Shown one piece after another: positions 1 through 63,610 of a stretch of 64,000 bases of DNA. The stretch spans positions 248,001 to 312,000 of the forward strand of contig JAUPFP010000052.1 of NCBI GenBank assembly GCA_036925085.1. The letters run 5' to 3'. The notes beneath the pieces are model-generated. The model worked only from the letters and a program-made list of their open reading frames with translations. It searched no databases and was not told where the DNA came from. The position numbers and the translations under genes were made by a program. The DNA comes from Brachycybe producta. Taxonomy: Eukaryota; Arthropoda; Diplopoda; Playtdesmida; Andrognathidae. Position 1 is the first letter of the stretch. Every line of letters starts with the position of its first letter.

Positions 1-4724
<4,724 letters not shown>

Positions 4725-11977: not shown

Positions 11978-14900
11978 CTGAAAAAACATTAAAAACGGAT
12001 CGGAAATTACTTTCTTCTTCTTCTTCTTCTAAGAAAAGGGGGTGGGGAGAGGGTGGTTACCGTTGCAGTTGGATTGTGATTGATGTGGTGATGATGGTGA
12101 TGGTGGTGGTGATGATGATGATGGTGCTGGACACTCGCACTACGATGACCACCGCCACCGCCGCCTCCTCCTCCTCCTGCTCCCGATCCACCGGACCATC
12201 GATCGTTCCACGACCGAGCTCCCATCTTATAGTGACCCACGACGCAAGTGAAAACGCCCACCGTTACGGCTATGGCCAATATCACAATGATTATCTGGAC
12301 ACTGGACACTACGAGACAAATTAGACGAAATATTTTGAAGGATGACGTCATGAAAAAATTTTTTTTTTATAAAACATTTCGATTTTTAATTTCAAAAATT
12401 TCACCTTTTTTCAAACTGTGCTTAAAAAAATAGTTCAATTTGAACGATATATCACCATGAAACCACTACTTTCAGTCTCAATCCTACTCTTCTAGTCTCC
12501 ACTCAATCCTACTCTTTCTAGTCTCCACTCAATCCTACTCTTTCTAGTCTCCACTCAATCCTACTCTTTCTAGTCTCCACTCAATCCTACTCTTTCTAGT
12601 CTCCACTCAATCCTACTCTTTCTAGTCTCCACTCAATCCTACTCTTTCTAGTCTCCACTCAATCCTACTCTTTCTAGTCTCCACTCAATCCTACTCTTTC
12701 TAGTCTCCACTCAATCCTACTCTTTCTAGTCTCCACTCAATCCTACTCTTTCTAGTCTCCACTCAATCCTACTCTTCTAGTCTCCACTCAATCCTACTCT
12801 TCTAGTCTCCACTCAATCCTACTCTTCTAGTCTCCACTCAATCCAACTCTTTCTAGTCTCCACTCAATCCTACTCTTTCTAGTCTCCACTCAATCCTACT
12901 CTTTCTAGTCTCCACTCAATCCTACTCTTCTAGTCTCCACTCAATCCAACTCTTTCTAGTCTCCACTCAATCCTACTCTTTCTAGTCTCCACTCAATCCT
13001 ACTCTTTCTAGTCTCCACTCAATCCTACTCTTTCTAGTCTCCACTCAATCCTACTCTTTCTAGTCTCCACTCAATCCTACTCTTTCTAGTCTCCACTCAA
13101 TCCTACTCTTTCTAGTCTCCACTCAATCCTACTCTTTCTAGTCTCCACTCAATCCTACTCTTCTAGTCTCCACTCAATCCTACTCTTCTAGTCTCCACTC
13201 AATCCTACTCTTCTAGTCTCCACTCAATCCTACTCTTCTAGTCTCCACTCAATCCTACTCTTCTAGTCTCCACTCAATCCTACTCTTCTAGTCTCCACTC
13301 AATCCTACTCTTCTAGTCTCCACTCAATCCTACTCTTCTAGTCTCCACTCAATCCTACTCTTTCTAGTCTCCACTCAATCCTACTCTTTCTAGTCTCCAC
13401 TCAATCCTACTCTTCTAGTCTCCACTCAATCCTACTCTTTCTAGTCTCCACTCAATTTACTCTTCTATTTATTAATAAAAACAATTTCAATTCTTTAGAA
13501 TTGTTTTTTTTTTAAATCAATAATATTTTATTTTTCACTTTAAATCCAAAACAAATTGAATGAAAAATTTAATGTTTATTTAATTTAATTGAATCGTCAA
13601 AATGTTATTAATTGATAATTAATTAATAAAAGTCCAATAGTTGAATATTAATTAATAATAAAACACACTTAAGACGACGGTCCTTTTTCCAAGAAGAAAG
13701 ACAAACCCCCCCCCACTGCAGCGCCACCTATCCCTCAAAACACAAAACTAACCAACACAAACACGCATGCGCATGTAGCATCTGTCAACTAGAGCTTACT
13801 TACCTGATTGCATTGAACTGGACAATTATAGCCTCGAACAAGGGTCATCCACTGAAAAAGCGCATTGTTCTAGTTGTTTTAGAATATAATCTTGGTAATG
13901 TACTTAAGCGAATTGTAGCCTCCAAGCAGGTTCTTCATAAAACGCATTTGTCTCGATATATTACTACTGGTGATCGATTTAAAAACTGTAGCCTCGAACA
14001 AGGTTCTTTGATTTAAAAAAAAAAAACGCATTGTTCTAGTTTTAGAATATAATATTGGTAATGGCCTTACAATACTCTAGCCTCTAAGTAGGTTCTTCAT
14101 AAAACGCATTTTTCTCCATATCTTACTACTGGTACTGTACTTAAGAGACTTCTAGCCTCTAACCAGTGCTTTATTATGAAGGAAGAAGAAGAAAAAAAAT
14201 CCTATTCCATGTTGTTCTCAACAAACAAGACACAGAAATTGATAGAACGAGCGAAAAACAACACACAAAAAAACGCACGCACATTAAGAGAAACAGGACG
14301 AAAAAAGTGACCTTGAAAATGAAGAAAAAAATTACATCCATTAAAAAACACATGTTATTTTCTCTCTCATTCTATCACACAATATGAGTTGCTGTTTTTG
14401 TATCATTTCTATTCTTAGCAACATTTCAACGCAGACTCTGGCCTCTCTCTCTGTCTTTCTGTCTCTCTCTCTCTCTCTGTCTCTCTCACTGTATCTCTCT
14501 TTCACTCTGTCTATCTTTCTCTCTCTATTGCAACACATACAAAACACAGATTAGACAGTCCAGACAGACAGACAGACACTCATCATCGTCATCACTTAAA
14601 ACATAGATTTCTAGTGAAAAATGTGTGTTTTGTGTCTAAATAACTCCACCCCTCTCTCTCTCTCCCTCTCTCGTAATATAAATCCGTATGTGTTTTACTT
14701 AGTTAACACACACATAATAAGAGAATATAATAGACATTATTAATGAGCCTTCCCTATTCATTCATTCAGTCTGTTTGTCAATTTCTAATCTCCTCCCAAC
14801 CTCCTCCTCACTATTTTTATTGCTCACAAAAATCATCGACTCTCAAGTTCCTCATTTTTGAGAGTAAATTTCAAGACAACAAAACCCACAGAAATATTAA

Positions 14901-17900
14901 GAGGGAGAGAGAGAGTATGATTTATTACACAGTTTGTGCCATTCTAGTTTCTAAGAAACTTGCACATTTTTTTAAAGAATTGCTTTAAAAAACGTTCAAA
15001 TTTGGGCCTTTTAATAAAAAAAAAAACTGCTGTAAAAAGTTCATTTTGAACGATATATAATCTTGAAAATGTTTCCACGACATTCGTCTACTATTCTAGT
15101 TTTTAAAGAGGTTACAAATTATTTAAATAGTTGCGCCTTTAACCAAAATGACATTTAAAATAAATTCGTTTTGAATTTGGGTTAAAATAGCAAATAAAAA
15201 GTTCATTTTGAACGATATAATCTTGAAAAATGCTTCCAGGAGATTCGTCTGGGGTATTCTAGTTTTTAATAAACTCTGGAAAAAACCTTTCAAAAATTTT
15301 GTTATAAAAATTTGTGAAATTTCAAAGTTGGCTCTTTCCAAACGATGCAAAAAGTTCATTTTGAACGATAACACGGTCCAGAAAAATATTTCTAGTTTAC
15401 TCGTCTACAATTCTAGTTTCTAAGAAGCTCGTAAATTTCTTTTTCTAAATTTTTTATAAATTTTACTTCAAAACTGCTATATAAAGTTTATTTTAAACGA
15501 TATCGTCATGAAAACACTTCTATGACATTCGTTTACTATTCTAGTTTCTAAGCATCTTTGATTGCATTCATAAAATTGCTTCTAACTCCCCCCCCCCCTC
15601 CCTTTCCATTAAGCTAAAAATATACATCTGGGGATTTTTTTCTTACTTAGAAACCAGACAACGTTTTTTTTAAATAGTGTGACCAGACAACACAAAAATA
15701 GGGAGAAAAAAAATGGTGCGTAATTGGTTATAATAGGGAGGGAGGGAGAGAAGTGTTTTAAAGGGCGTGGGTGTAGAAAAAAAAAAGTCTGAGTGGAAAT
15801 AAGGGGGAGTGGGAAGGGAGGAAGGAAGGGCGGATATAAAAAGGGGGTGGCAGACGTCTGATCCGTGAAGCTCCCACCCTCCCCCTCTGTAATCTCTCCG
15901 CCATTCCACCCTCATCCCTCCCTCCCCCCTTTTGTTTATTCAAATAAACAGACAAAACACACAACAGACAGACACAGACGAGGTCAGTGGGTTAAAAATC
16001 CCTATATCTGCACACACCGGGTCATATTTCTCAACCGCAAAACAACATTAAACAAAAAATGAACGAAAACAGACGTCCATTAGCACATTCTGTTAGTCAT
16101 CGATTTAGTCAGCGGTAAACAACAGCTCATTTATTATCTCTAGACGGAGACATTAAAGGCGGTTTTTTAATTCTCGAACTTTGATTATTTCGTCTAACAG
16201 AAGCAAAATTAAAAGAAAACCTTTGATAGTTTTAGAAACTAGAAGAGTAGCTCAACCTTTTAATATTTGATATCTTTCAAAATAAGCTTTTTATGTCAGT
16301 CTGAAATTGATCCAACATTGACAAGCTGATATTTTTTAATTTTTATCAATAAAAAGTTTATTTTGAAAGATATCAAATATTAAAAGATTGAGCTACTCTT
16401 CTAGTTTCTAAAATACTTTCTAGTTTTCCTTATTTTTTCTCTCCTGAAAGACAGAATAATCAGCTGTTCATAAACCATCTTAATGCCGGCTATGAGCCGC
16501 CATTTTCAGACCGTCGCGAAAATATCGAATCCTATAATAAAAAATATACAGTACTGAAAAAACGGTCAGAAAATGTCCGCCATGCCATCCCTCGTATAGA
16601 TCCAAAACGCGTAAGTCCACTGTGTGACGTCATTTTCATAGTCTATGGAAATGACGTCACACTAACCGAATAACAAAACGTTTCAGACGAAAAGACTTAA
16701 AAACAAATATGGTCACGTGATCGTTTTTCAAGCAAAAAAAAAAAAAAAAATCAACAAAATTTGATCGATTTTTCTTCCTCATGGTTTATTTTTTTATTTA
16801 AAAAAAGTCCTTCCAATTATTTTAGTAAAACAAAAAAACAGGTGAAACCGGAAGTGACCCAGTTTTATCCCGTCTAGTGCATTTCCTGTCAGAAAATATA
16901 TTTATTTACAACAAAAATACATTAAAACGAACGCGAATAATGTGTTTGCATTTTTTTTTAAAAGAAATCTCTGTGAATAAAGACTAAAAAATTTCAACAC
17001 ACCCTCTCTCTATACGTTGAAAATGTTCCCGCTAGAGGGAGTTCAAAGGTTGGCGGCCACCCCTTTAAACAATCCCATCCTTCACGTGAGACATCAAAAA
17101 AAAAACCGAGTCGACTCTCGCGACATGAGCGCCCCCTTTCGTTCCCCTCCCCACCCTCGTTTTTTTTATCTTTCTCTCCATTGAAGGAGTGCCACAACAG
17201 ACACCCGTGTTAGAGATTAGGTTCAAGGCTAAGAAATGAAAAGAAAAAAACACCCTCCCCCACCCCACTATTTTGTTACATAAAAAGAACTCTCTAATGA
17301 GCAGACAGACGACTGTCTGATAGTTTTTTTTCTTCCTTCTCTTTCTCAGGTCTGAATAAAAAACCCCCGCACCTTGTTCTTTTCTAGTCTACAAATAGCA
17401 GACATAAAAAACAGGGAGGAGGAGGAGGCTAAGAGCTTTTTTTTAAATCCATAATATGCAAGACTATATATAAAAAACATTCTTTTATGTTGTTGATATA
17501 AAAAATGGGGGAATCTAGACATTCTGCAAAATTGACTAGTCAATCTGCAGATTCTTTTTTCTGATTTTCATGCAAAATTGACTAGTCAATCTGCAGATTC
17601 TTTTTTCTGATTTTCATGCAAAATTGACTAGTCAATCTGCAGATTCTTTTTTCTGATTTTCATGCAAAATATCAAAAGCAAAATGTTTCTCAATCTGTGG
17701 CCCAAGAGCTGAATTTTAGATCATTTTCTAATCAAAAACACTGGTTAGAGGCTAGAAAATTCTAGTTGACAACTGTTATCAACCAGCCTTTTAATTCTAA
17801 CCAACCCTTTTTAATTAAAAAAGCCTAATTACAGTTCTAATGATAATGAACGACAAATTGGCACTTGGGGGCCACAAATTGAGAAACGTTTTGCTTTTGA

Positions 17901-20900
17901 TATTTGCGTAAAAATCCGAGCCCTAATTTTTACTAAAAACTACAATTATAGCACAAGAATTGGGGCTTTCAACGATTATCTTTCAAAATAAACTTTTTCT
18001 AGAAGAATGATTTGAAATTCAAAGTTTATTAGAAACTAGAATAGTAAAGGAATTTTATAAAAATATCTTTTGAGTTTGAAACTTAAAAGCAGATGATATT
18101 TAGTTTAATATAAAAAAAAGTTCATTTTAAAAGATGACGTCACTCAGTTACCCTTCTAGTTTTTAAAACACCATCTATAGTTCCTCTTCTGAAAGACAGA
18201 AATAAACCAAGAGTTCAGAGAAAGGCGAAATTTAACACATTGAAACCGACCTTAAGACGAAGCTAAACTTAAAAACACCATTCACAGTTGGAAGTTTTTA
18301 AGTTTAGCTTGAGGTAAAGCTAAGCTTAAGCTTTTGAATACTTTGGGGCTTTTTTAGCTAACGACAAACCGTAGTTTAAAGTTTAAGGTCAATTTTCCTA
18401 AGCCATTATATTTTGTAAAATATAAAATCTCATCCCACAATTGTAGTTAAGCCTCTAATCACACTTGCAACTTTTGATGAAACTTTGATGCAATAAAACT
18501 TGCAATGTGACATTGCAACTTTGTTTATAATGTGATTATGACATGGCGACTTGATAAAACTTTCCTTTCAACTAAGTGTGAGCCTCACACTCTCATTGAG
18601 TTGCACGTATTCCACTTCTGAAGAGACTTTTTATGAAACTTCCTTACAAACAACCAATCAGGCTGTAAATGACATCAAAACTTTGAAATGAACTTCCGGT
18701 TTCATGAACTTCCTGTTATAAGCCCCTATCACACCAGCAACTTTTGATGAAACTTTGATGCAATAAAATTTGTTGCAACTTCTTTGTTTAGTGTTGATAT
18801 GAAATGCAACTTTTGATAAAACTTTCTTTTCAACCAAGTCTCATTGAACTGCACATGTTCAACTTCTGAAGAGACTTTTTATGAAACTTTCTGACAAACA
18901 ACCAATCAGGCTGTATGCCAGAAAATGACATCAAAACTTTGAATTTCCGGTTTCACGGACTTCCGGTTTAGTGGACAAACAAAATTAAGTTTTGAAAACT
19001 TGATGTGATTACATAGTTCTAAGTCACATTGCAAGTTGAATTGCATCAATAAGGGATATCACACTATAGCAACTTTTGATGCAATTCAACTTGCAACTTG
19101 CGATGTGACTTACCAACTTAGAACTTTCTAATAAACTTCTATCTAATCACATTTTAACTAAAACATTTTGAAAAGATTTTTTTCAAAAAAAAAAAAAAGA
19201 AAAATCTAATAGAAAAATAACAAAAGTTGTTTTCTTGTTGAAGTGCCAAGAAACTAGAAAGGACATAATTATTATTATTTTTAAAAAAAAAAGACGTGTT
19301 TTCGTTTCTATTTCTGTTGCTATTTCTCCTCCTGAAACGTCTTTTTTTCATTTTTCATTCTTCTTAATTCAGGAAAAGTCAAAGCCAAGGACAAATTTAC
19401 ATTTTATTTTTCATCTCTCTTTCTCTCTCTCATTATATCCCTTAATTTCTCCCTCATTCTCTCTCTCCCTCATTCTCTCTCTCTCTCTCTCTCTCCCTCA
19501 TTCTCTCTCTCTCTCTCTCTCCCTCATGCTCTCTCTCTCTCTCTCCCTCATGCTCTCTCTCTCTCTCTCCCTCATGCTCTCTCTCTCTCTCTCCCTCATG
19601 CTCTCTCTCTCTCTCTCTCCCTCATGCTCTCTCTCTCTCTCCCTCATGCTCTCTCTCTCTCTCTCTCTCCCTCATGCTCTCTCTCTCTCATTATATCCCT
19701 TAATTTCTCTCTTAGTCTTTCACTCATTCACTTACCATTTAACTGAGTGACTTATGATGAAGACGGAGAGAGCGAAACAGCGAAATTGCCTAAATTTCAA
19801 AACTCCGCCCACAAAAAATCATCAATTCTTAAGCCTCGTGTCATGAAAGTTGGCGATAGTTCACTCTCTCACGATAACAACTGTCTATAAATCACAGGTA
19901 GTTAGAAATAGGTGAAAACTTCAGTTGGCTCCACCCTTTTTATGACGACCGGCCACTTCTAATTGGTTGGTTATGTAGTGGCTGACGTCAGATGCTCCGC
20001 CCTTTTCAACGTCGAATCACACAAACAACAAACCAATTAGAAGTTGCCAGTCGTTATAAAAAGGACGGAGCCAACTTCTGTTCGTCCCGATTTCTAAATG
20101 CCTGTATATCGTGAAAACGAGGCTTTTGAAAATTTTCACCGACAGCCAAATAAAAGGTACGGAGTCCTGTTGAGGACATTTTGAAAGTTTTTCTTTTTTT
20201 CTACAATCCGTATTTAAGATACAGATTACAAATCCGTATAATAAATTAATAACGGATTTGTAATCTATATGTTACCGGCAATGTACGAAATGCAGGCATT
20301 GTATACAATGCCTAGGAAATCTATAGAATGCTGTAAATGTCGCGTCACCCTTTTCCTAGACATTCTCTATGCAATGCCAAAACGAAAACCAGCAAAGTAT
20401 GAAATACTTCCGCCAATGACTTTTTTATTATCGCCTAACCATGACTTTCCATACTTTGCCTAAATATTACTTGTCGTTCTATATAATGCCTAGGTATTTT
20501 ATACACAATGCCTATGGAAAGTATTTTTGTATGTTAAAATACCACCGACATTTTATACTTTGCCTAAAAACGTCACGCATTCTGTAGATTTCCTAGGCAT
20601 TATATACAACGCCGGCAACATACATAAGGATTGTAAAAAAAAATGTCCTCAGCAGGGCTCCGTATATGAAATAAAATTAAAAACCTTATTAATTACCAGA
20701 AAAAAAATGAATTTTTACATCAAAAAACCTGGTTAGAGGCTAGTAATCAGATCCTGCAAATAAAAACTAGTATTCTTGCTTCAAATTTGAATACCATTCA
20801 TACCTCGCTATACGGCCGCTCTTTATACACCTTTTTTTAAAGCTATAACGGCCTTTTCTAATTTATTATAACTCAAGTTTCGATTTACGGCCACCAAAAT

Positions 20901-23900: not shown

Positions 23901-26900
23901 TTCGTATTGCAAGCGCGTCACATTAAAAAAAAAGTTGAAAATGCACTATAATAAAGCACACGAAAAACAATCATATTTATGTTTTCAGAAGGGCCAGGGG
24001 GCCCTATGCGCCCCTCTTTTAATACAAACAACGCACAGACACCATAACTGCAGACAAGTCTACGAAGAGCACAACACCAGACGTTATTAAACGAATCATA
24101 AGTGAGATACACCCTGAGATGAAGAAAATAAAAAACGACCAGATTCAATCAAAACTCGCACTCTGAAATTCACTCGGAGTAATCCAATCTCACTCCCTAT
24201 ACACCATCTAACCTAGAAATCCAAATTACTATATTTCTACTCTATACGCTCTGAGCACTCCGAGCCTTAACAGCTTTAGATCTAAAAGATCGCAAACTTC
24301 AAACTCTAACTACGTTCTAGAACGCGGTAAGAGACTTCCAGACGTTTCTAATCGATAATAATCACATCTACACTCTTGTTGAAATCCATTTATATAGCTA
24401 TCTATATATAGTTTTTGCATCGCATTTTTATTTTTGTAAAAAAAAAAGCCTGCATTCATTTTTATTTAATATAAATAAAAATATATTTTGTAATTTTTTT
24501 TAGTATTTATTTTTTTTCGTATAGTTGTTAGCATTTTATTTTTTTGCAATAATCTGATTGGCGAAAGGAGGAGGCGGATTTTCAGGCCTTAATTTAATCA
24601 GTTTTTTTTTTCTGCCTGTCTGTCTCCTTGTTTACTTGTGTGCGTGGCCTACGTTTTTGAATCCAAACAAGTGTCTAGCCAATACGGTGGATGCTTTTTA
24701 TAGATAGGGAAAAGGGGGGGAGGCGAGAGGGGTTTCATTTTCATTATATTTGTCTATTAGTCTAGCCTGGTTTTTATATAATATCAAACATTTTTTAAAA
24801 AAAAAAATTCGTATGTGGTTTTTTTTGTCCACGTGTCGCGTGTCGCTCTTCTTTTTTTTAATATCTTGTCTGATCTGTATAATCAACCAATCATGATTAC
24901 AGAGATGTAGGTAGGCCTATAAGTCGTTGTGACGTCACTGTCGTGTCTTTTGACAAATTAACCACGCCCACTCAAACACATCAGCGTTTTTTTTCGATGA
25001 GGTCATAAGGTCAACGACCAATAAGAGTATAGACACTCGCGCTGCTGCTGCTGTTGATCTCGCCGCGGATGATGACGTCATATCATTGCAGTCGTCACAT
25101 TAGTACCAAATAATAAATCGGGGGGTTTTTTTGATTTGATTTGAAGAATTCCCTAATTTTATTTAAATTTTTCCTCTACATTTTTATTACCAGATATTTT
25201 TATCTGACATCGTTTTTTTTTATTCCGGATTTTACCGGGAAAATTTCTATTTTAATTCGTTTTCAGAAACTAGAAATTGATGATTTTCCTATTAAAAACC
25301 TGTAACATTAGGCTACCCTTCTACTTTCTAAAACACTTGGTAGTTTCTCTCTTGATTTTTTGTTCCTGAAAAACAGAATAATCAAAGAGTTCGAAGAAAT
25401 CGAAAATGTTTTAGAAACTAGAAAGGTAACTTAATCACATTCGTATTTTTTTTTAAAAAAATAAAACTTTTTGGAGCAGTATTAAAAATGACTGAATTTT
25501 AAGATAGAAAAGTGATTCTTTTACTCTTCTAGTTTCTAAAATTTCAATTTCTTTTTAATTTTTTTTTATTATAAAAAGATGATTTTCTTAAAGAGTCTTT
25601 CAGAAAAGCAAAATTAAAAGAAACTAGAAAGTGCTTTAGAAACTAGAATGGTAGCTTAATCATTTAAGGAGGGTATTTTCATAGCTTGATATCTTTCAAA
25701 ATAAGCTTTTTATGAACAATTTACATAACAAGCTTATTTTAAAAGACATCAACATGAAAATCAAGTCTTTAAGTGATTCAGCTACCCTTCTAGTTTTTAA
25801 AACGCATTTAAGTTTCTCATAATTTTTCCACCTGAAAATCAGACTAAATCAAGAACCCCCCCTCTCTCCTCGTTTACACCTTAAATGCCTGCGGTTTTTG
25901 ATGAACAACAGCTGATTTCATTTCATTTTTTGTAATATTTATCATAAATTTTTTAAGTGAAAATTTCGCACATTTAAAATTTGAAGAAAAATATCACCAC
26001 TTACCACAACCAATTTCCATTCCATTTAAAAACAAAACTCAATTATTTTAAATTAAATTATCACAGTTAAACACATTTTGTTTTCTTTGATTTTTATCCA
26101 TTTTTTTTTCTTGATAATATTTAATATCCACCCGCGAAAAACACACAATTTCGCGGCAAAAATAAAAATCCCTATGTGTAAATAAAAAAATCCCCGCGCG
26201 ACGACAACACCGGGTGCGAGCGCGTGCGTTTCCTTATTTTTTTTTCTCTCACCACCAAAGCGAACGAGAGTGAGAAGAGACAAGAGAGCCACACGGGTCT
26301 CGCGCGTTTGAAAAATATGCAATTCCACCAGAGCCTAGATAGAGCTCCTCCTCCTTATTCCCCGTCACGCCGTCGATTTGTCCCTATTAACGAACAACAC
26401 CCGTTGGCAAAGTGCCAACAAAGACTAGACTGATAGACACAAATATGAATGTCTTTCTCTTCATATCCTTCTCTCTCTCTCTCTTTTGCTTATTTGCAGA
26501 CAGTAGACAAACTCCTCCCACTAACCCCCCCTCTCTATCTATCTCGCTCTGTCTGCGTGACGTCATACTAGTGATTAGCGTATGTATTTACAGGGTGATT
26601 GCAAAGCATGATGTCATCTTTATAAATTAATGAGACATTTGATAAACAATTTAATGAATAAAGACAAGCAAAACAATGGTTTTTGATGTTTATGAGTTTA
26701 AAAATTCGTCTTTTGAAATCAAAATAATTATTTAATTAATATTATGAGTATTTTAAATTAAAATTAAAATGCTCATTAATATATAAAATGCTTTATTAAT
26801 ATAATTCGTTAAAATGCTCATATTTCTTAAGATTTTAAAGCATTTTTAAAAGACAAATTTTTTACGGGAAAATTTCTACAAAAAAATGTCAAAATTTGGA

Positions 26901-27611: not shown

Positions 27612-30600
27612 AACACGACATAACATAAACAACTAACAGAAATTCCCAGCCCCCCTTTATTTCTGCAATTGACTACTAATACCCCAAGACCCGTCTAGTC
27701 AATAATAGATTCTCATCAACACAAACATACACATTCTTACAGTCAAAAGTGAGAAAATATTTTACTTTGCACAATGACTGAACGTCTGAGGCATTTTGCA
27801 TAATGCCTAAAACAACAGGTCTCTTATTTCTACAATTGAATACTAATTTACATGACTCATCTAGTCAATAATGAATTTTTCATCAAATATCTTACAGCCA
27901 AAGTGAGAAAATTAGTTATTCTGCATAATGACTGACCCGTCTTATTAAATAATTTGCAGAATGTCTAAAAGAACACATTCTAGATAATTCCTTAATAATT
28001 TAATGCATTAGGCATTCTGTACTTTACCTAAACAAACATTCTTTAGATCTCAAAATAGACGGTATAAATCTGCACATTGACTAGTTATTGCATAAAATAA
28101 CATTATCTTCATGAAGCATTCAGTCGTAACGTAAGAGGAACAAGAAAAGTGATCCAATATGGCGTTTTCATACAATGTATTTCAATAATGAATACGCCAT
28201 GTTAGATCACACCACAGTCACCAAAACCTAGCATCAATAATGTTAAAAGTTAAAAACGACATGAGCATTCGTTTCTATAATAACGATTGGAAGCAAGAAG
28301 CAGCGAACTTAGAAACCACAATCGTGAACGATAAAAATGATCCAATATGGTTCCTCCTTGCGAACATTACTACACGACAAACGCCATATTCGATCACCCT
28401 TTCACACGCATCAATAATTAAGTTTAGTGTTAATTATAGCTAAAAGACCATATACAAAACAAAATACAATATCGATTTGAATCACAAAGCGCATTCTTAT
28501 TGAAACCAATGACACAGTGATGATCCATTATGGCGACCTTATTGGATACATTTTAAAAGCGATAAACGCCATATTGGATCACCAAAATAAGCATCAATAA
28601 CATGACAAACTTGTCACTATCAATAATTAACGAGATAAAGATCAATTATAAACTTACCATCCATAGATGAACCTGCGGTTGAATTGGATTCACTTCGTCC
28701 ATTAGCGGACGATGACGAAGCCGGAGGCCAACTGTTAGGACAGTCGTGCTCATCGCTACGATCGGCACAGTTGGAAACACCATCACACACCATAGACCAG
28801 GTGGGTAGACAACTGGCGTCTGCACAGGTGAACTCACAAGCGCCGCCGCTAGAGGCGCCACCATCACCTTGTATCCCTCCTCCTCCTTTATAAAATATAA
28901 AATGTTATAAAATAAATCATTGTTTATTTTGTGTCTGATGAATCAGTGGGTGGATAATGATGATGATGATGTCAAAGCCCCCAACAATTAAGGGGGTGTT
29001 ATGGTTGGTGGCCCCTCCCCCACCCCCTTTCAAACTCTTGTTGATTCAAAAGTAAATAAGTCCCACTTATGCTAATGAAGAGCAGAAATATAATAGACTT
29101 GAAATATTATTATTATGATCATCATTAGCAAGCCTCAAAACAAACACTTTATTTTCTGTCTTTCACAATTTCCCATTCATATATAATATTGTAGCCTCGT
29201 CCACCCCCTCCCCCTATTTCCAGACATATTTGTTTAACTATTAATAATTCTTTGAAGCTTGTTTTTTTTGTGTGTCTGGCATTGATTAAATATTTTTCCG
29301 TCTATAATGTCGCCCAATGCCCTTGAAAAACATTGACATCACTTTTATTATTTTATCAAATAAATTAAATAAATATGAAACAAACAAAACCGATTTTTAT
29401 TTCTCTTTTGACGCAAATTTGCAGACATAAGATTTTTATAACAAAAAATGGAAAACTTCATTAGAAGCGAAGGTGGCGCCCTCCTCAAAACTTATTAAGG
29501 AAACCTAAAATTTTTTTAAAAAAAACTTTGGAATGTGTTTTTAGAAACTAGAAGAGTAAACTCAATCACATGATTATCTTTATTTTAATCTTTTAAAATA
29601 AACTTTTTATGTTAGTTATGACTAAAATGGAAGTTAAACTTCATTAGAATCGAAGGTGGCGCCCTCCTCAAAACTTATTACGGAAACCTAAAATTTTTTT
29701 TAAAAAAACTTTGAATGTGTTTTAGAAACTAGAAGGGTAAACTCAATCACATGATTATTTTTATTTTAATCTTTTAAAATAAACTTTTTATGTTGGTTAT
29801 GACTAAAATGGAAGTTAAACTTCATTAGAAGCGAAGGTGGCGCCCTCCTCAAAACTTATTAAGGAAACCTAAAATTTTTTTTAAAAAAACTTGGAATGTG
29901 TTTTAGAAACTAGAAGGGTAAACTCAATCACATGATTATTTTTATTTTAATCTTTTAAAATAAACTTTTTATGTTGGTTATGACTAAAATGGAAGTTAAA
30001 CTTCATTAGAAGCGAAGGTGGCGCCCTCCTCAAATCTTATTAAGGAAACCTAAATTTTAAAAACTTTGAATATGTTTTTAGAAACTAGAAGGATAAACCC
30101 AAACATGAATATTGTTCACATGAGTATATTTTCATTTTGATCTTTTAAAATAAACTTTTCATGTTAGTTATAACAAAAATGGAAGTTAAACTTTAAAGTA
30201 GTTTTAAAGGCAAGTGGCGCCCTCATTGAACTCCAGTTAATTCTGTCTTGAGAACAGATAAATTATGAGAAATTTGAAAACTGTTTTAAAAACTAGAAGA
30301 ACAGCTCAATCATTAAAAAAGTATTTTTCATGTTAATATATTTTAAAATAAGCTTTTTTTATGTAAAAAGTTTATTTTCACAGATATCTAACCCTTTAAG
30401 TTATTCAGTTACCCTTCTAGTATCTATCACACTTTCAATTTCTACTGAAATAATCAAGAATACGAAAATCACCTGTTCATGAAATATCTTAAGTTTGTTA
30501 AAAAACTAGAATGCGCTAAAGATGATCTTCATTAACAATATCGTCAATAATGAACTTTTTTTTTGTATTGAAGTTTAAAAATATCAATTGTTCATTTTCA

Positions 30601-33600: not shown

Positions 33601-36600
33601 CTTTTTTTCCTACTTTCCATCTATCTCCTCTTCTTTTTCCTGCATTTTCTCTCTCTCTCTTTCTATTTCTGATGTCACTTTTGTCGGGTCTGAAGAGAAA
33701 TGAGAGAACGAATGAAAGATAGTAAAAGACGGCTATTCCAATCAATACTTCTCCTCCCCCTCCTTATATTTTTTCTCCTTCTTACATCTTCATAAACACA
33801 CACATACATACATACATAGAAGATAAGGGCTTAAACGCACACATACGTACATGCAATTACATACATAACATTCTTACGGATACAGATACACACATTTATG
33901 GATACAATAACATTAGTTGGTTACAGATAAGACAAAATCCATCAACTTTATTCAAGAATGCTAAAGTAGATCATTTATTTTGTGCATGTAGCGTTAGATG
34001 GCGCCACTAGCCCACCTACCATATACATGTACAGACTGACTTCCTTTTTTTTGCACGTGGCCAAACTTTGAATTGTGTCATCAATAATTTTACACGTGCT
34101 CTCCCTTCACTTGTATTGTGTTCTGGGTGTAAGTTTGTCCACGTGCTCTGATAATTAATGTTGTTTTGGACGCGCTTTTAGAGGCTAAAAGGGTGCATTC
34201 GATTTCAATCTAATTGGCACCTGTGGAGGTTGCAAGCGCCATCTACCGTGCATTTACACAAGTATTTTTTTTCTATGGAAAGCTCTCTTAATAAAATGTC
34301 ACAAACGATCAAACCAAAGATAAATATACAGAGGTAAGTCGGTAACTCAACTGAAGAGCTCTTCTCATTGGAGCATTACGTGTTATAGCTTGACTGTGGT
34401 CGATAGATGGCGCAAACTGTACTCATTGCTTCAGTTTTACAATACGATTCAATGAACGTACAAAGTAAATGGATGTCATTCTAAAAAGCAAGATGTCTTC
34501 CTTCTAGCTTCAAAAATAAACAAACGGAGTTCAACCTTTTTAAATTTATTTTGATTGTGGCTCTTGTTTAATCCAAGATAGATTTAAAAAGGTTGAACTC
34601 CGTCTGCTTATTTTTGAAGCTAGAAGGAAGACATCTTGCTTTTTAGAATGGCATCCATTAGTTAGAAAAGAAAAGGCCAAAAGTGAATGACGAATCGTCT
34701 GCTTTCTGAAGCTAGAACTTAGAAGGAAGACATCTTGTCAAGGAAGACGACACAGGTGGGTGAATCTCGTACGATATGACAAGCTACAGGTATTTTTCAA
34801 GGGGAACGACATTGAGGGTGAATCTCGTACGCATTATAATCGCATTGTAATTGAAGCTCTTAAGTACAGTTTGCGCCATCTATCGGCCACACTCAGTTTT
34901 GATCCATAGAAAGAGTTCTTAGTTGATTTACCTTTGTATATGTGTGCGTGGAAGACAGGCAATTAGAAAACGGGATAAATAAGAAGTTGGCTCCGCCCTT
35001 TTTATGACGACCGGCAACTTCTAATTTGTTATTTATGTAGTGGCTGACGTCACCATGCTCCGCTCTTTTCAACGTCAAACCACACAACAAACCAATTAGA
35101 AGTTGCCGGTCGTCATAAAAAGGGGCGGAGCCAACTTCTGTTCATCCCGTTTTCTAATTGCTTGTGTGTGTGGAAAGGGAGGCACCATTTTAATTCTTCA
35201 TTCTGTTAGTATTCCATCTCTAATGTAGAGGGCGCTACCAGTGTAGTCAATACCTTGGCCCATTATTATTCTTATTATTATAAAATAACATAATATACCT
35301 GATAATAATGACGTCATCACCTTAATGCTCAACATACACAAACAAGAAAAACCAGAAATTTATATTCGGAGAGAAAGATGGGAAATACAAAAAAATACCC
35401 CCCCCCTAAAAAAATTAGCCCTTTTTTTAACCCCCCCTTTTTATATTTTTTTTTAAAAAAAGGGGCTAAAAAAAATAAAAGAGCCCCCTTTATTTTTTTC
35501 AATATAGTCTGGAATCAGAAAAGGGCAAAAGGAGGGGTAAAAGGGGGGGGGGGCAACCCACACCCCCCTTATGGCGACGTTTTTTTCATATAAAATAAAC
35601 CCCAGACGGTCCACCCCCCCCCCCCCCCCTAAAAAAAGCTGTGATAAGCTAAGCTTTAAGCTAGTTATTTGACAAAAGCCAAAAAAAGCATTTGGCACAA
35701 AAAAAAATCCCAGACAGACAGAGAATAATTTCAACTCTCTTTTACACACGATCGATCTTTCTCTCAATCCAGAGAGAGAGAAAGAGAGATTGATCAACAC
35801 TTGGTGGCTCGCGAGCCACAATAAAGGCCCACATGCGAGCCACAACTCAAAGTAATGGCTCGCGTGCCACTTCAAAGGGTCAATCTCGATAGAGAAACTG
35901 AAAAGACCTAGTTAGAGGCTACTTAAAAACAATTTCAACGTCTGTAAGAAAACTAGAAGAGTAAAGGATTCGCGATTGAAAGTAATTTCGTGATGATATC
36001 TTTCAAAATAAACATTTTATAACAGTTTGAAAATGGCCTACTACGTTTATCATTCTGTTTGGCTCAATCTCTAATCACAGCCAAACTTGTCATATTAATC
36101 GTTTATTTTGAAAGATATGGTTAAAATTCAAAAAAAATTTAAAGTTTCTTAGAAACTAGAAGAAAATAGTAATTTTGTGACGAAATCTTTCAAAATAAAC
36201 GTTTTATGGAAGTTTGACATTGATTTTTTTTGGTCGAAAAGCGAAATATGCCATTAAAAACGTTCATTTTAAACGATATCGCCATAAAATTAGGTGTGCA
36301 CTTGATTTATTTACTCTTCTAGTTTCTAACAAACTTGAAATTCCTTTTTGAAAGTTGCTTTTCAAAAGCTTAAACGATGTCCTTTTAAATCCGGAGCCTC
36401 TTGATAGATCTTCATAGGGGCCCGCGCCCCTAATTGGGTCCAACCAGCCCTGAAATTTAAAAGCCCTTTTTATCCCTCTTTTATGATTTGAATTTTCTAT
36501 GAATTGATATTAAAAAGAATGAATTTTTCTTGGAAAAAATAAAAAAGACGTTAAAAATGAGTCAATTTTCATTTTCATTCCAAGAATGTCTAAGTTAATA

Positions 36601-38009: not shown

Positions 38010-39214
38010 GTCTGGCAAAACCACGACTTCCTCTAGATACTAGGGATAACGTTGAGATCCCCAAAAAGACCGCAGCAAACTCATAAAAGCGCTTCATTAG
38101 TAGAAAAAGACGGAAGAAAATAGAGATAGAAACAACTTCAGACATCAACCAGCCTCCATCTTGACAGAAAGAGACGAATAAAAAAAAATATTGAGGCTAG
38201 ACAACAGTACATAGAGGCTAACAGCCTTGTCTTCTTTGTGGCCGCCGCCACCGTCAAAATTGCGCCGTAGACGATGCGCAGAAGTTCAAAATTAGCCTCG
38301 ACCGTAAGGGTACGTTATTAAAAATCAATCTGCGCCCTCTAGGTGTAGACACTATATCGAGGCGGCTTCCTAGAGGAGAACGTAGAGAGGCTAACAATAT
38401 TTCCTATAGACGCCGCTGTCTAGGATTTAAATCAAAATATGCATACTTTCAAATGGGCTATTAACAGACGTAACCAAAATCAATAGAAACATAAATTAAT
38501 CGCTAATATCGGCGGCTATCAACCAGATTTTAGCGACGAAATAGCGGCTAAACTTTTAAATTTCAAACTAACCGGCGCCAGAAATAAACCAAATTTTGGC
38601 GACTAATAAGCCGCTAATTGAAATTTACTAGCACATTCTCTTATTCAGTGTGACGTCATGTCCATAGATTTTCTTATGAAGGTGACGTCACACTGCAGTA
38701 CAAATCGATGAATAATGAACTGGGCAGTTAAAAATTAAGCAAAAATTCTGATTATTCAGAATTTCAATGCAAAATGAAAAGAAACTTGAATGAGTTTTTA
38801 GAAACTAGAAGAGTAGCTCAATCACTTAAAAGATATTTTTTTTCAAAACAACCTTTTTTTATGTCAATTTGAAAGTGAACCAACTTTAAGCAGACGATAT
38901 TTTTTAATTTTTCTTATTAAAAGGTTTATTTTGAAAGATATCAACATGAAAATACTATTAAGTGACTGGGCTGCCATTCTAGTCTCTTAAAAATGAAACT
39001 ACTAACTAGACATTCCCACCATTCATCGATTTTTCCACGCAACACCAATGAAAGAAATCGACGAGTAATGGAATTTGCAGTAAATTCGACTTAGTACACC
39101 TGCAATCAGCTCGAGAGCCACGTCGCTGCACCAATCCTCTTTATTTCCACCCGATTCAAATTAAAACTCGAGAATTCTCCTTTTTTATTAAACCACATTT
39201 GAAACAATAATAAT
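38010..39214. other. Spacer between the CUB-LDLa gene and the neurl2-like gene
   Basis: The first 150 bases are the likely 5' UTR and promoter side of the CUB-LDLa gene. CTGCGCCCTCTAGGTG at 38330 is a CTCF-like site. A full foldback element lies at 38795-38992 (TTTTAGAAACTAGAAGAGTA facing ATTCTAGTCTCTTAAAA). No gene is seen. Confidence 0.5.
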
Positions 39215-42067: not shown

Positions 42068-42370
42068 TAGGGCTCGGACTTTTATGTAAAATCAAGCAAA
42101 TGTTTCTCAATCTGTGGCCCAAGTGTCAATTGTGAAGTAAACATCATTCATCAGTGTCATCACCATTAGAGCAATTGCAATTATGCATTTTCTAATCAAG
42201 GTTGGTTAGAGGCTAGATGTCTGGTTACTATTAGTTGTCAACTAGATATCTAGCCTCTAACCAGTGTTTTGGTTGATCTAAATTAGATTGATTGTTACTT
42301 CATAATTGGCACTTTGGCCACAGATTGAGAAATATTGGCATAAGATATTGCATAAAAGTCCGAGCCCTAG
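42068..42370. mobile_element. TIR element, GGGCTCGGA family
   Basis: Ends TAGGGCTCGGACTTTTATG and AAAAGTCCGAGCCCTAG are inverted. Subterminal TTTCTCAATCTGTGGCC faces GGCCACAGATTGAGAAA. Central GGTTAGAGGCTAG faces CTAGCCTCTAACCAG. About 303 bp, non-coding. Confidence 0.88.
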
Positions 42371-42674: not shown

Positions 42675-45375
42675 ATGAAATCTGTAAGTTTAGTGATTGG
42701 TTCTCATTAATTTTCAATTTTATGCACTTGCACCTTTGAGAAGAAAAAAAAAACACTTTACACCCTCTTTAAGAAAACAGAAATTGAAAAGTTTACTAGA
42801 AACTAGAATAGTAAACGAATCAGAGAAAACATTTTTTTTTCATGGTGATATCTTTCAAAATAAACTTTTTTTTATCAAAGTTTGAAAAAGTCGCATCGAA
42901 ATGAAAATTCGTTCTTTTTCTCTCAAACTTTTTATATAAAGTTTAATTTGAAAAATACAATCATAAAAATATTTGTTTTATTTGAATCATTTAGTTTTCT
43001 AGTTTTTAATAAACTTTTTAAAATAAATTAAAAAGTTTATTAGAAACTAGAAAATTAAACATGAAATATGATAAGGAAAAAAGCCTTAATTATCAAATCT
43101 CAAAACTAATTTCTCAAATATTCAAACATTTGCAAAAAACTAGAATAATAGGAGAACCTTTTAAGAAATATCTTCATGTTTAAAATCTTTTCATGCATAT
43201 GTTTAACTAGAAAATGTTAGCCTCTAACCAGTCTTCTTTATTGAACAAAAATAATTGTGGTTTATAAAAGCCATTATTATTAGTTAACAAAAAAATATGC
43301 ATTTTTACAATTAATAAAAGCTGTTTAGAGGCTAGAATTTTCTCAAAGGAAGCCATCACTTAACACAAAGTTCTCCTTGATTTTTAGCCTCTAACCAGTC
43401 TTTTTTGATTGCAAATAATAATAAGTATGGATTTTCTAGTCTTTATTAATTAAGAATTTATGACAATTATATCAAATTGCATAAAAATACTTTAAAAAAC
43501 ACTTTTTTCAGCTTTTAATTTGCATAAATTTCGTTAAGCCTGATTAATGAGGCCTCTCAACGAGACTAATCCTGAAAAAAAGAGCTACAAAAATATTCAT
43601 TTTGTAATATTAAAAATTTAAAACAAAAAAAATGTGGACGACACACTTCCGCATAGAAAATTATTTGTCCCTGAAATAAATAATTAACAATACTTAGGCC
43701 TTGATTCCATTGGGGCGACAATTTCAACTGTTGAAAAATAACAGTGTTTCCTATGGAGAAGTGAGTTAATGCACATTTCTATTAGTTGGCTAATATGACG
43801 TCACCAATAGGAGAAAAGTCATTCAATAGAAAGCCCTCAATTCCCCCCCCCCCCCAAAAAAAAGTACAAATATTCGCCCCAAAAAAAGTTGAAATTGATT
43901 CAACTTTTGTTGAAACCTTCTTTTTGGTGAATATTTTTGCTTTTTTGCATTTTTTGAGTCGCCATCTTTCTTTTCGTTTCGTTGTTGGTGAGTGTTTTTT
44001 CAATGATTTTTCTTCAATTTCTCATCATTCCAGTTAAATTAATGTATTTTAATTAGTTGTATGATATATTTAACTATAGATTTACAGAAAAAATAACGCC
44101 GTTTCGATGTAAATATTGATAAGAAACGGCAATTTATGTTTTACTTAAAGTGGTAGAGCGAATGTGGTTTTCTCACCTCAATTGGCCTAACATAATGAGC
44201 ATCCGATAATAGTAACTAGGCGGGAACCACGTTTGTTCTGTTATTAGTCGCCATATCGAATTTCTTTTCTCCTACTAATAGAAATGCATTAACACACTTT
44301 CTCCATAGGAAAAAAAACTTATTTTTCAACAGTTGAAATTTTCAACAAGTTACAAATTGTCGCCACAGTGGAAACAAGGCCTTAATGTCCATTGTAACCC
44401 AGTAAATGAAATGATTTTCAACTTTCTGAAAGAATGAAAAAATAAACTGAAATAATAATTAAATGAAAATTAATTAAATTTTATGAGAAGTTTCAGTTTC
44501 TGCTGTTTATTGTTATTAATTATTATTATAGTTCAAAATCAACAATGAAATCTTTAAGTTTAGTGATTGGTTCTCATCAATTTTCAATTTTCTGCACCTT
44601 GCACCTTTGAGAAGAAGAAAAAAAACACTTGACAACCTTTAAGAAAACAGAAATTGAAAAGTTTACTAGAAACTAGAATAGTAAACGAATCAGAGAAAAC
44701 ATTTATTTTTTCATGGTGAAATATTTCAAAATAAACTTTTTATCAAAGTTTGAAAAAGTCGCATCGAAATGAAAATTCGTTCTTTTTCTCTCAAACTTTT
44801 TATAAAAAGTTTAATTTGAAAAATACAATCATAAAAATATTTCTTTTATTTGAATCATTTAGTTTTCTAGTTTTTAATAAACTTTTAAAATAAATTAAAA
44901 AGTTTATTAGAAACTAGAAAATTAAACAAAAAAAGCCTTAATTTTCAAATCTCAAAACTAATTTCTCAAATATTCAAACATTTGCTAAAAACTAGAATAA
45001 TAGGAGAACAATCTTTTTAAATTAAGTTTTAAATTAATGTTTAAAAGAAGAACGTAAACTTTGAAATTTTTTTCAAACTCAGTAGCAAAACGCTTATTTT
45101 GCACTTTTTAGAAAACTATCCTACTATTCTAGTTTTTAAATTGATAAAAAAAATTAAATCTTAAACAATTTTACTTTTACTTTTCTCAGATGAGAATCAC
45201 CAGTTTCGTACTTGTGTTGGCCCTTTTGATGACGTCAGTGGTGGTCCAAAGCCAAATAATGAACACAAGTGAGGCCACAAGTGAGGCCACAAGTGAGCCC
45301 ACTTCTGAGGCCACCACAATGGAAGATATGAACTCCACTGCAACGGTCACCTCGTCATCTACTCCATCCGAATGA
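42675..45375 (+). CDS. Small secreted Ser/Thr-rich peptide, nine-base first coding exon
   Basis: Proposed exons 42675-42683 (ATGAAATCT, MKS, then GTAAGT donor) and 45190-45375 (acceptor TTTTCTCAG), phase 0, giving 64 residues. After MKS comes MRITSFVLVLALLMTSVVVQ, a clear signal peptide, then a mature chain of SEAT/SEPT repeats rich in Ser, Thr and Glu with no Cys. It could be a small mucin-like secreted peptide; no family is recognised. AATAAA follows at 45555-45560. The join is inferred by analogy with the minus-strand gene at 47535-48562, which has the same ATGAAA-first exon and phase. If exon one is not used, translation could begin at the ATG at 45190, since the acceptor abuts it. The duplicate first exon at 44545-44553 has a mutated donor (TTAAGT). 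Confidence 0.65.
43697..44381. mobile_element. 685-bp TIR element with TTA target duplication (PIF/Harbinger-like)
   Basis: Ends GGCCTTGATTCCATTGGGGC and its diverged complement CCACAGTGGAAACAAGGCC. Subterminal TTTCAACTGTTGAAAAATA faces TATTTTTCAACAGTTGAAA. TTA flanks both sides (43694-43696, 44382-44384), and the duplicated block at 42385-42400 shows the matching empty site with a single TTA. There is no transposase frame, so it is non-autonomous. Confidence 0.85.
44545..44553 (+). pseudogene. Duplicate first exon with lost splice donor
   Basis: ATGAAATCT with the same 5' context as 42675-42683 (GTTCAAAATCAACA before it) but followed by TTAAGT in place of GTAAGT. The TATA-bearing piece found upstream of the first copy is missing. 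It reads as a dead copy lying inside the working gene's intron. Confidence 0.65.
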
Positions 45376-46004: not shown

Positions 46005-46326
46005 TAGAGCTCGGATTTTTATGCAAAAATATCAAAAAGCAAATGTTTCTCAATCTGTGGCCCAAGTGCCAATTTAAAGTAACAATCATCATTAGAGCAA
46101 CTGCAATTATGCTTTTTTTTAAGAAATCAAAACGGCTGGTTAGAGGCTACATGTCTTGGTTACTATCAGTTGTAAACTAGTTTTCTAGCCTCTAAACAGT
46201 GTTTTTGATTTGAAAAAAATCATAATTGTTTGTTGATCTTAATGTGGGATTGTTACTTCACAATTTGCTTTTGGGCCACAGATTGAGAAACAGTTGCTTG
46301 ATAAGTGCATAAAAATCCGAGCCCTC
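46005..46326. mobile_element. TIR element, GGGCTCGGA family
   Basis: TAGAGCTCGGATTTTTATGC at the left and AAAATCCGAGCCCT at the right, with TTTCTCAATCTGTGGCCCAA facing GGGCCACAGATTGAGAAA and central GGTTAGAGGCTA facing TAGCCTCTAAACAG. Confidence 0.85.
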
Positions 46327-46450
46327 ATAATAAACAATACTAAAAAAAATGCATTTTATGCAAGTAAATATTAATTAAATAATTATTAATTAAAATATTT
46401 TACAAATAGATGATTTTGTAACTGGTTATTCTAAAATTTCAGAAAACTGA

Positions 46451-46653
46451 AAGTGTTTTTAAAAAACTAGAACGGTAAAAGAAACACCTAATAGTATTTT
46501 AATAATTGTTGATTATCTTTCAAAATAAACCTTTTATGAACAAACAATTAAAAAAACATTCTTTCAAACTTACGTATAAAACGTTTATTTTAAACGATAT
46601 CAACATGAAAATATCCATAAGTAAAATAAGCTGCCCCTTCTAGTTTCTAAAAA
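46451..46653. repeat. Full foldback element
   Basis: AAAAAACTAGAACGGTAAAA and GATTATCTTTCAAAATAAAC face ACGTTTATTTTAAACGATAT and GCCCCTTCTAGTTTCTAAAA. Confidence 0.8.
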
Positions 46654-49982: not shown

Positions 49983-51864
49983 TCAGTGACAGGCGCACGA
50001 GGCGGCCACCATGTCATCGTACTGTTTTAGAATCACGTTCTCGTTTCCGTCGAAATAGAGGAGACTTATCGAGAAAAGTTTGTTCGGAACACAGCACGGC
50101 ACCTCGACGTCCGTCTGCAGTTGAAGCTCGTGCACGATACTCTGGACCGTGGCATGGTTCGTAGGCATCAGGTTCTGACCCAGAGGAAACGAACACTTTC
50201 CTAAGCAATGATAAGCATTGTAACCCTTAGGAAAAATGATCCATCCGGACCAACCGATCTTCTCGAAGTCGACGGCAAGTTCGTGACGTTGGCATTCGTC
50301 GGATCGGCCGCCGACGGATTCCGGTGAAGCCGGAGTTCCATCCTCGTCCAAAAGAGCCGAAGAGGATGTGGCCGAAGACCGACGGTTGCGAACGTAAGAG
50401 GCTCGGGTCGCATTCAGTGGCGAAGAATCCTCCTCGTTCCAGTAATCCTCGTCCGAGTCCGGACCCGAATGACTCCATTCGGCAAGTTCGTCTTTTGTTC
50501 AATGAAAATGAAACTTATTTAATTCTAGTTTTTAAGTGCAAAAGCCCTAAAAACTTTGGGTTATTTTCTGTATTTCCGGAACAAAATTAAGAAAAATTGA
50601 AAGTGTATTAGAAACTAGAAGGGTACCGGTCAGCTACCCTTCAAGTTTCTAACACACTTTCAATTTTTCTTTTTTGAAAAAAGCTGTAATGAATTTCAAT
50701 ATTGTGGGCGTTTTCATCACCTGGCGATGGGAAGTTTGGTGCGTGACGCGGTCTTCCGTCGTCCGTGAAGAGAACCAGAATCGGTTGTTTGCTCGCATGA
50801 TGTCGCCTCTTAGCGATTCGTACGAGACTGGCCGTATCTTCGACCGAATCGCCACCGATCGAACGAAGCGTAACCAACAACCCTGTTCGATACGAAACGT
50901 ATTTTAAACAAAATCTCATTTTACGATCTTTTTATTTCCGTATTTATACCGTGGTTGGAAGAGTGGTTTCGTAGCCAGTCGATGGCCGCCGTCTTCACGT
51001 GAAACACTTCCCAGCCGATGGAATACGAACTGACACGACGAGCGTCAAGAAGCCGGTTGCCTTCCTCTTCGTTCGATAGTTTCTCGTCCATCACCTGGTA
51101 AATTCTCATCTAAAACAATCAAAGACGAGGGTTTCGAACAAACGTCCGTCAGTGGAGCCACAGAAAATCCGTCGTGGCCATGACAACCACCAAGTAATCT
51201 CGATGGCCACCTAAGAAGCTCGGTGGACACCAAGAGACTTCGGTGGCCGCTAGGAGACCTTGGTGGTTACCGCAGCCACTTCAGTAATCTTAACTCTAAG
51301 TAAGCCTCTCACTTCATAAAGATGAGATTTAACATCCTCCGAATCGTCATCGTTACGAAAACCGATCGGATGCGGTTTCAGTTTCATCTTATAGATATGA
51401 AATTCTGCCTGTAACACTTGTTCAACCGGATCCACTCCGCTTAAATTGAAAGCAAAATGCATCTTGTGGCTCACATCTAACGAAAACAACCAAACCTCAA
51501 ATAAGAATCGACACTTGAACTTTTCCAAATTTTCTTTTCTAGTCGAAGTGGTTCTACCTTTGTCGGGAAAAGATCGAATCACGTTGGCACCGTAAGGATT
51601 GTGAGTGACCGTTATTCCTGAACTGTCGGCGATCGAATTGTACAAGTCCAGCATATACTGAGGTGGAAAAAGGTGTCGATAACGATGACTCGGAGGACTG
51701 ATTCCGAACACTTGAAGTAATTTTCCCAACGCTTTGTCTTTGATGTCTTGCAAGGTGGACACGGGTAAGGATGGCGTCGGAGGAAGTGTGTGGCTGGAAA
51801 TGACCACCAAAAACCAAAATAAACACAAAAATATTGTCAAAACGGAATTATTCCGAAGTGCCAT
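49983..51864 (-). CDS. admp: BMP/TGF-beta family ligand, ADMP type
   Basis: Five exons (51558-51864, 51313-51476, 50950-51109, 50721-50882, 49983-50491) give 433 residues with consistent GT-AG phases. Signal peptide MALRNNSVLTIFLCLFWFLV. The propeptide shows SPPSHRYRHLFPPQYMLDLY, AEFHIYKMKL, RLLDARRV, WEVFHVKTAAIDWL and ILVLFTDD. A furin site RNRR lies at 299-302. The mature domain has all seven cysteines (331-432), with VDFEKIGWSGWIIFPKGYNAY, PTNHATVQSIV, CCVP and NVILKQYDDMVAASCACH. The KGYNAYHC, FPLGQ and KQYDDMVA.SC.CH pattern is why ADMP is preferred over BMP3 or BMP2/4; ADMP is a dorsal/organiser-expressed BMP-like signal in chordates. The CxC is CAC where most BMPs have CGC. A minus-strand AATAAA lies at 49861-49866. 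Confidence 0.9.
50589..50671. repeat. Compact foldback in the last admp intron
   Basis: Arms 50589-50625 and 50635-50671 pair at 35 of 37 positions around a 9-base loop. They carry the family's outer sequence (TTAGAAACTAGAAGGGTA) but lack the inner ATCTTTCAAAATAAAC part. The hairpin fills much of a 229-bp intron. Confidence 0.92.
51160..51275. repeat. GGTGGCCAC-type degenerate minisatellite in admp intron
   Basis: TCGATGGCCACC, TCGGTGGACACC, TCGGTGGCCGCTAGGAGACC and TTGGTGGTTACC follow at intervals of about 22-26 bases. It lies between the second and third coding exons. Confidence 0.55.
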
Positions 51865-62620: not shown

Positions 62621-62751
62621 ATTTTACATAAAGTGTCAAAATTTATTATAAACTAGAATAGTAGGTATATTTTCTAGAAGTGTTTATTGCATAATTCAGG
62701 TCGTGGTTATTTTCTGCAGTTTCAGAAAAGGAACAACAAACAGAAATTTTG

Positions 62752-63610
62752 AAAGTGTTTTAGAAACTAGAATGGTAGCTGAATATCACTTCACATGTTG
62801 ACATCTTTTAAAATAAACTTTTTAAAAAAAAAAAAAAAAACTAAATATCTATTTAAAGTTAGGTCACTTTTCAAAACACTGAAACAAAAAGTTTATTTTA
62901 AAAAATGTCAACGATGCAAAATCTCCTGAAGTGATTGAGCTGATAACCCTTCTAGTTTCTAAAACACTTTCAGGTTTCTCGTAAGATGTTTTATGAACAG
63001 GTGAAAAATTAATCAAAACAGCAAAATTAATTAAAAAAAATTGTTTTAGAAACTAGAAGAGTTTCTCAATCACTTGAGGAAATTTTCATGTTGTTATCTT
63101 TCAAAATAAACTTTTTAAGTCAGTTTAAAAAGAACCTAACTTTAAGCAGATGGCATTTTTATGAATTCTTGTTTATAAAAAGTTTATTTTGAAAGATATA
63201 AACATTAAAATCTCCATTAAGTGATTGAGCTGCTAACCTTCTAGTTTCTAAAACACTTTGTTTCCCTTCATTTTGTTCCTTAAAAACGGAATAAAAAAGT
63301 TTATTTTAAAACATATTTTCGCATGAATCATATAATCAAATTCATCTACTATTCTAGTTTTTAAACTTTTATTCCTTTTAATAAAGTTGACCAATTTAAC
63401 CTTGTTATAAATGTATTTCTTTTTATTAAACTTAGTTTTTTTTTAGAAACTAGAAAGGTAAATATAATTTTTAATAATTCTATTACCTTGAAAAATAAAT
63501 AAATTGTATCTCAACCTGTCACAAAAAGTTTATTTTAAAAGATATCATCATGAAATTACTTTTTAAATTTTAGTACATTCACTTACTATTCTAGTTTTTA
63601 AGCAAACTTT
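62752..63610. repeat. Three consecutive full foldback elements
   Basis: Hairpins at 62756-62970, 63043-63256 and 63437-63605. Each opens TTTAGAAACTAGAA(G/T/A)GGTA-like and closes TTCTAGTTT(C/T)TAA, with inner ATCTTTCAAAATAAACTTTT and AAAAGTTTATTTT partners. The second is near consensus, with GATGGCATTTTTATGAATTC in its loop. Confidence 0.88.

Follow-up and report, generated by a model that had tools for sequence, protein, structure and literature searches.

The window analyzed here, a stretch of 64,000 nucleotides (bases 248,001–312,000 of contig C52 in a host genome of 295 Mb and 442 contigs), contains at 16230 a hairpin with 65-nt arms that are 97% complementary, and related arms recur along the window. 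What kind of repeat is this, what moved it, and do its hairpins serve the host? The gene set of the window is that of an animal, with Pfam matches to TGF-beta, Neuralized, CUB, PDZ, and LDL-receptor domains; ARAGORN found no tRNA genes in it, and it had no Rfam match at gathering scores. The best explanation, to which we assign a probability of about 0.7, is a very abundant, ∼365-bp non-autonomous fold-back DNA transposon (MITE) family that inserts at TTAA, its mover most likely being a Kolobok-type transposase supplied from elsewhere.

Abundance and Distribution

The preliminary description had reported a two-part arm repeated dozens of times in the window, and motif counts bear this out: at ≤3 mismatches the outer motif (22 bp) has 31 matches, against none in 100 shuffles, and the inner motif (20 bp) has 45, where 0.09 were expected and the shuffle maximum was 1. 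A profile search at E 1e-5 gave 48 matches in the window, covering 8,072 bp or 12.6% of its length. All ten hairpins named earlier fall within these matches, each covering at least part of both arms, and the other reported forms are present as well: tandem arms at 29 and 15 kb (Table 1), compact hairpins (50589–50671 and 61024–61101), and single arms.

The consensus and host-genome search proposed with the earlier claim showed the family to be very abundant. With ≤1 mismatch, the inner 20-mer occurs at 9,643 + 9,442 = 19,085 sites in the whole host genome, compared with 0 + 1 for its reversed control. A 194-bp query around the 16230 hairpin yielded 2,352 first-look candidates in the genome, the best 40 of which were scored; other genome places matched at 75–81% identity (best row each). 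Thirteen 10-kb pieces chosen blind to the motifs (L009, L014–L025) held 44 matches over 9,461 bp (7.3%), and four of the 13 had no family match at all. Rough scaling from this small and uneven sample suggests near 100,000 fragments genome-wide; if that extrapolation is true, one MITE group makes up several per cent of an animal genome. Copies do lie in putative introns and in spacers, as had been stated, and they are spread unevenly over the host genome. Nine coding stretches of the window were marked visually on the basis of open frames and Pfam matches, and all 48 profile matches lie outside them; one stretch (50641–50931) had been cut to 50700–50931 at a putative splice site before overlaps were counted.

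Extent and Ends of the Element

Extended alignments of arms and flanks revealed a palindromic element of ∼365 bp, whose true ends lie 70–77 bp outside the previously reported arms, at TTAA followed by GGTGGTTTTAAAG and TTAA followed by GATGGTTTATGAACAG. Outward similarity of the arms stops at TTAA plus GGTGGTTTTAAAGTG (arm A) or TTAA plus GATGGTTTATGAACAGCTG (arm B), and no conserved sequence was seen beyond the TTAA in the aligned arm flanks. Each arm consists of three parts: its end reads GGTGGTTTTAAAG or GATGGTTTATGAACAG, its outer module TTTTAGAAACTAGAAG, and its inner module GATATCTTTCAAAATAAACTTTTTAT. Not counting the two TTAA, the profile consensus is 359 positions long; its seed left out six of the 18 full elements that loose matching had found. 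In the whole copy at 16 kb the left end reads AGGCGGTTT and the right end, on the other strand, GATGGTTTATGAACAGCTG.

Exact TTAA occurs at 14 of 41 A ends and 16 of 28 B ends (local ends), against a background of 0.012 per position. Within ≤2 bp the counts rise to 21/41 and 17/28, compared with 6/41 and 3/28 in an equally long control span 20 bp further out. The genome was also searched with 75 nt of the arm-B end, typed from the consensus (best 40 of 1,276 candidates scored; top identity 97%), and 35 of the 41 matches listed start at the first T of TTAA. Many ends lack TTAA, partly because copies have decayed or fuzzy matching has misplaced their ends. The most common starts are GG at one kind of end and GA at the other.

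Short, non-coding, and present in high copy number with inverted-repeat ends, the family has the properties of a MITE, and the TTAA is probably its target-site duplication. One genome search with the joined flanks of a copy in locus L041 returned only their own two halves in place of an empty site, and among the matches listed, local BLAST of joined flanks gave noise or tandem family copies. Drosophila Foldback elements similarly have long fold-back inverted repeats and internal tandem repeats.

Features of the family in the window are collected in Table 1. The two copies at 42 and 44 kb lie in a duplication, ∼92% identical between 42700–43100 and 44570–44952, which spans the family copy and its flanks. 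A putative 229-bp intron of the BMP-like gene (50492–50720, splice sites set by eye) consists largely of a compact family copy.

Table 1. Family copies, arms, and arm arrays in the window (window coordinates; model positions refer to the profile consensus).
Position	Strand	Feature	Evidence
12406–12499	+	Weak match, 26.7 bits; outer module runs into the 26-bp minisatellite at 12477–13464	Profile match
14985–15581	−	Four single arms, all in one orientation	
16153–16483	+	Whole element on which this report centers, TTAA at both ends (16153–16156, 16480–16483)	Letters, end match, profile
16230–16294	+	Inner part of left arm of the 16-kb copy: outer and inner modules	Motif matches
16349–16413	−	Inner part of right arm of the 16-kb copy	Hairpin complementarity
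25570–25856	−	Two-armed copy, model 31–352 of 359	Profile match
29453–30193	+	Tandem array, period 181 bp, 4.0 copies, one arm each (matches 29519–30170)	
30198–30484	+	Two-armed copy, model 2–355; TTAA at 30193 and at the end, 30492	Profile match
36123–36369	+	Two-armed copy	Profile match
38743–38990	+	Two-armed copy	Profile match
42775–43017	−	Two-armed copy within duplicated stretch	Profile match
44647–44887	+	Two-armed copy within other half of duplicated stretch	Profile match
46399–46652	−	Two-armed copy	Profile match
50527–50673	+	Compact copy (two matches) in putative intron of BMP-like gene	
52791–52979	+	Weak copy, 38.6 bits, model 81–300	Profile match
62715–62986	−	Two-armed copy	Profile match
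63020–63287	+	Two-armed copy	Profile match
63441–63621	−	Weak copy, 58.6 bits, clusters with subfamily 2	Profile match, clustering

Decay of the Hairpins

Intronic copies had been put forward as a source of long double-stranded RNA. Before any such role is proposed, it can be tested cheaply by asking whether arms are more alike within copies than between them. The comparison covered 97 of 107 two-armed copies, the other 10 having given no usable arm pair (two loci, L003 and L004, overlap on the genome, so that one copy is doubly counted among the 107). Mean left–right identity was 0.847 within copies and 0.837 between copies (10,334 pairs; one-sided rank test, p = 0.076), and a copy's own partner arm was its best match in 4 of 97 cases. 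The arms thus decay nearly independently. The longest perfect stem had a median of 13 bp in both 103 real and 595 mispaired arm pairs. Stems of ≥20 bp were found in 18 of the 103 real pairs vs. 13% of the mispaired, and stems of ≥30 bp in 3 of 103 vs. 0.5%; this excess of long stems is slight at most and is the pattern that a few young copies would give. Homogenization of arms inside copies was also considered, and nothing past the slight excess in identity and stem length spoke for it.

That the host keeps the hairpins since intronic double-stranded RNA serves editing, Dicer, or splicing control is therefore highly improbable. The 16-kb copy has a long predicted stem (−125.9 kcal/mol, z −15.6), some copies do sit within putative introns, and the few 30-bp stems exceed expectation; yet arms are barely more alike within copies than between them, the median stem is the same in real and mispaired arms, and copies are found outside recognizable genes too. 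The 16-kb copy, with an arm identity of 95.5%, ranks among the best and does not typify the family. A strong predicted hairpin in a putative intron can accordingly be a plain product of decay.

Module Conservation and Subfamilies

Conservation along the element was measured on 91 matches above 30 bits from the window and loci L014–L028. Consensus A and T are kept in 85–86% of cells, G in 68%, C in 64%, and CpG in 52%. Against the expectation from base composition, the outer module is better kept by +0.091 in the left arm and +0.086 in the right and the inner module by +0.061 and +0.053, whereas the stretches between the modules fall below it (−0.053 left, −0.058 right), as does the center (−0.092). 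Residuals of the 108 paired columns correlate at 0.72 between the arms. The two ends disagree, with −0.026 at end A (186 cells) and +0.088 at end B (317 cells), values that few copies underlie. The inner AT-rich core had been described as kept as well as the ends; with base composition corrected, the inner block is indeed preserved almost as well as the outer one, but the inner motif belongs to the inner part of each arm and is not a central core. The stretch at consensus positions 34–55 has a residual of +0.033. In the arm it reads TTATTCTGTCTTTCAG followed by G, which resembles a 3′ splice acceptor.

Pairwise distances among the 107 copies have a standard deviation of 0.061, about twice the 0.03 of column shuffles, and therefore subfamilies exist. 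The earlier view of one family holds in that this is a dispersed, very abundant fold-back family, but it is not uniform. Subfamily 2 accounts for 12 of the 107 spanning copies, among them four from one stretch of locus L011, two from L013, and one weak copy in the window. Compared with the main group, its consensus is changed in 11 of 94 columns of the modules, 26 of 59 between-module columns, and 15 of 36 center columns. Its module changes (outer 3/21 and 3/18, inner 1/27 and 4/28) lie mostly in the right arm, which holds seven of the 11, so that the modules are not untouched. Its end, TTAA followed by GGTGGCTTTATAG, has two differences from arm A over the first 13 bp. When a typed 68-nt version of this end was searched against the genome (best 40 of 2,549 candidates scored; identity up to 98%), 37 of the 40 matches listed started at the first T of TTAA. 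Locally, exact TTAA was present in 5 of 6 matches to this end with ≤2 errors and in 7 of 28 when all loose matches were counted.

Because the outer motif served to find the first seeds, the module excess may be overestimated. It is nevertheless unlikely that conservation reflects merely the ascertainment of copies together with slower decay of A/T-rich sequence, with no constraint on source copies. The choice of seeds and the better retention of A and T than of C, G, and CpG would favor such an account, but the excess survives correction for base and CpG content, is symmetric across the arms, and is matched by a second subfamily that diverges far more in its spacers than in its modules. Constraint on source copies accounts better for the well-kept inner block. 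In our reading the family is a modular and long-lived MITE group, and its modules are putative transposition sites; as such they offer a concrete guess at the place where the transposase binds. More speculatively, the end and the two inner modules may be the lasting unit of selection in a modular MITE super-family, in which spacers and center are exchanged between lineages and the three parts jointly dock the transposase, as a three-site platform preserved through many generations of source copies. We hold this wider proposal only tentatively.

The Probable Mover and Known TTAA Elements

Kolobok elements are characterized by a TTAA duplication and by 5′-RR and YY-3′ ends (PMC9587614, PMC6004289, as far as the available parts of these papers describe them). 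The family has such purine-purine starts, GG and GA, and typed ends carrying them match the genome at up to 97–98%. Together, TTAA and purine-purine ends fit Kolobok and not piggyBac.

The host genome has 53 matches to PF20700, and 13 of these lie in uninterrupted open frames of 686–1,530 aa. One locus (L053, 2625–5333) carries an unbroken 903-residue frame in which a PF20700 transposase is followed by a YqaJ nuclease, the domain order given for KolobokE in the available text of PMC9587614. PF20700 is Mutator-like in Pfam and here probably represents a Kolobok transposase. The KolobokE and KolobokP elements of that source share the Kolobok signature with our family but are autonomous and longer, and KolobokP has long terminal direct repeats.

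A search for family ends flanking PF20700 genes covered L053 and one other gene out of the 53 matches. It gave no copy with family ends around a transposase gene: neither the 7.5 kb of L053 nor the 1.4 kb on each side of the second gene (L054, L055) holds a convincing relative, the best E values being 0.19 and 1.5. With neither a transposase gene between the MITE ends nor an empty site found, the Kolobok assignment is likely and not proven.

We picture the life of the family as follows. Non-autonomous copies would insert at TTAA, duplicating it as their target site, moved by a Kolobok-type transposase encoded elsewhere, for which, or for a helper, the outer and inner modules are candidate binding sites. 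The modules would be kept since only copies bearing them could turn into new source copies. Later, arms or modules of single copies would amplify in tandem to give arrays and minisatellites.

A derivation from piggyBac, with a piggyBac transposase as the mover, is improbable. It would account equally for the TTAA at the ends, and the coral (Acropora) CMITEs, ascribed to piggyBac, share with our family the TTAA target, a conserved internal region, and tandem arrays (PMC2872659, in its available part). However, according to the same text piggyBac ends carry CC[C/T]T, and the sequence next to TTAA is here GGTGG or GATGG. As described there, CMITEs are also ∼100 bp long with piggyBac-type ends, a conserved 75-bp interior, and variable TIRs, whereas the present family is ∼365 bp long, has similar ends (two differences between subfamilies over the first 13 bp), and combines two kept modules with variable spacers.

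Parallels are also seen in the Kolobok-type T2-MITE and Xmix elements of Xenopus, for which the accessible part of PMC6004289 likewise reports a TTAA target, purine-purine ends, high copy number, long life, and tandem amplification of an internal part. Those elements belong to another host and end in AGGRR, a motif that the GGTGG and GATGG ends here lack, and the same part of the paper makes no mention of two modules. No description of the present family was found among the papers listed by literature searches aimed at Kolobok elements.

THAP proteins were considered as a partner and set aside: the host genome has at least 106 THAP matches (150 of 160 candidates scored), and in the four loci read none had family ends around its THAP gene. 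Two of these loci, L049 and L050, are P-element-like. L049 carries a transposase piece with THAP and P-element HTH domains at 1690–3144 (−), and L050 one with TNP-like RNase H and GTP-binding domains at 2803–4234. Near-full family copies lie inside L049 and L052, by chance as we take it.

Probable Tandem Offshoots and Other Repeats

The family seems to give rise to tandem arrays and minisatellites, and tandem amplification from a MITE is known for Xmix/Xstir (PMC6004289, available part). A minisatellite of 26-bp units (38.6 copies, 12477–13464) starts inside a weak copy's outer module, and its last unit continues into the following stretch and the inner module in the correct order. Scored on its own, the unit matches the consensus weakly, with 310 of 3,000 shuffles equaling the single unit and 47 of 3,000 the doubled one. 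It is this order of parts, because the unit score alone is weak, on which we base the claim that the minisatellite seems to have arisen from the outer module.

Repeats of other kinds are present as well. Another hairpin family, with arms like CAAATGTTTCTCAATCTGTGGCCC, occurs in the window at 17667–17905, 42096–42339, and 46037–46299. Two long hairpins, at 34468–34659 (86-nt arms, 94% complementary) and 34955–35165 (87-nt arms, 79%), were not tied to the family. Suggesting an arthropod host, arrays of TTAGG, the telomere repeat of arthropods, lie near the start of contig C1 (G000), from position 5001.
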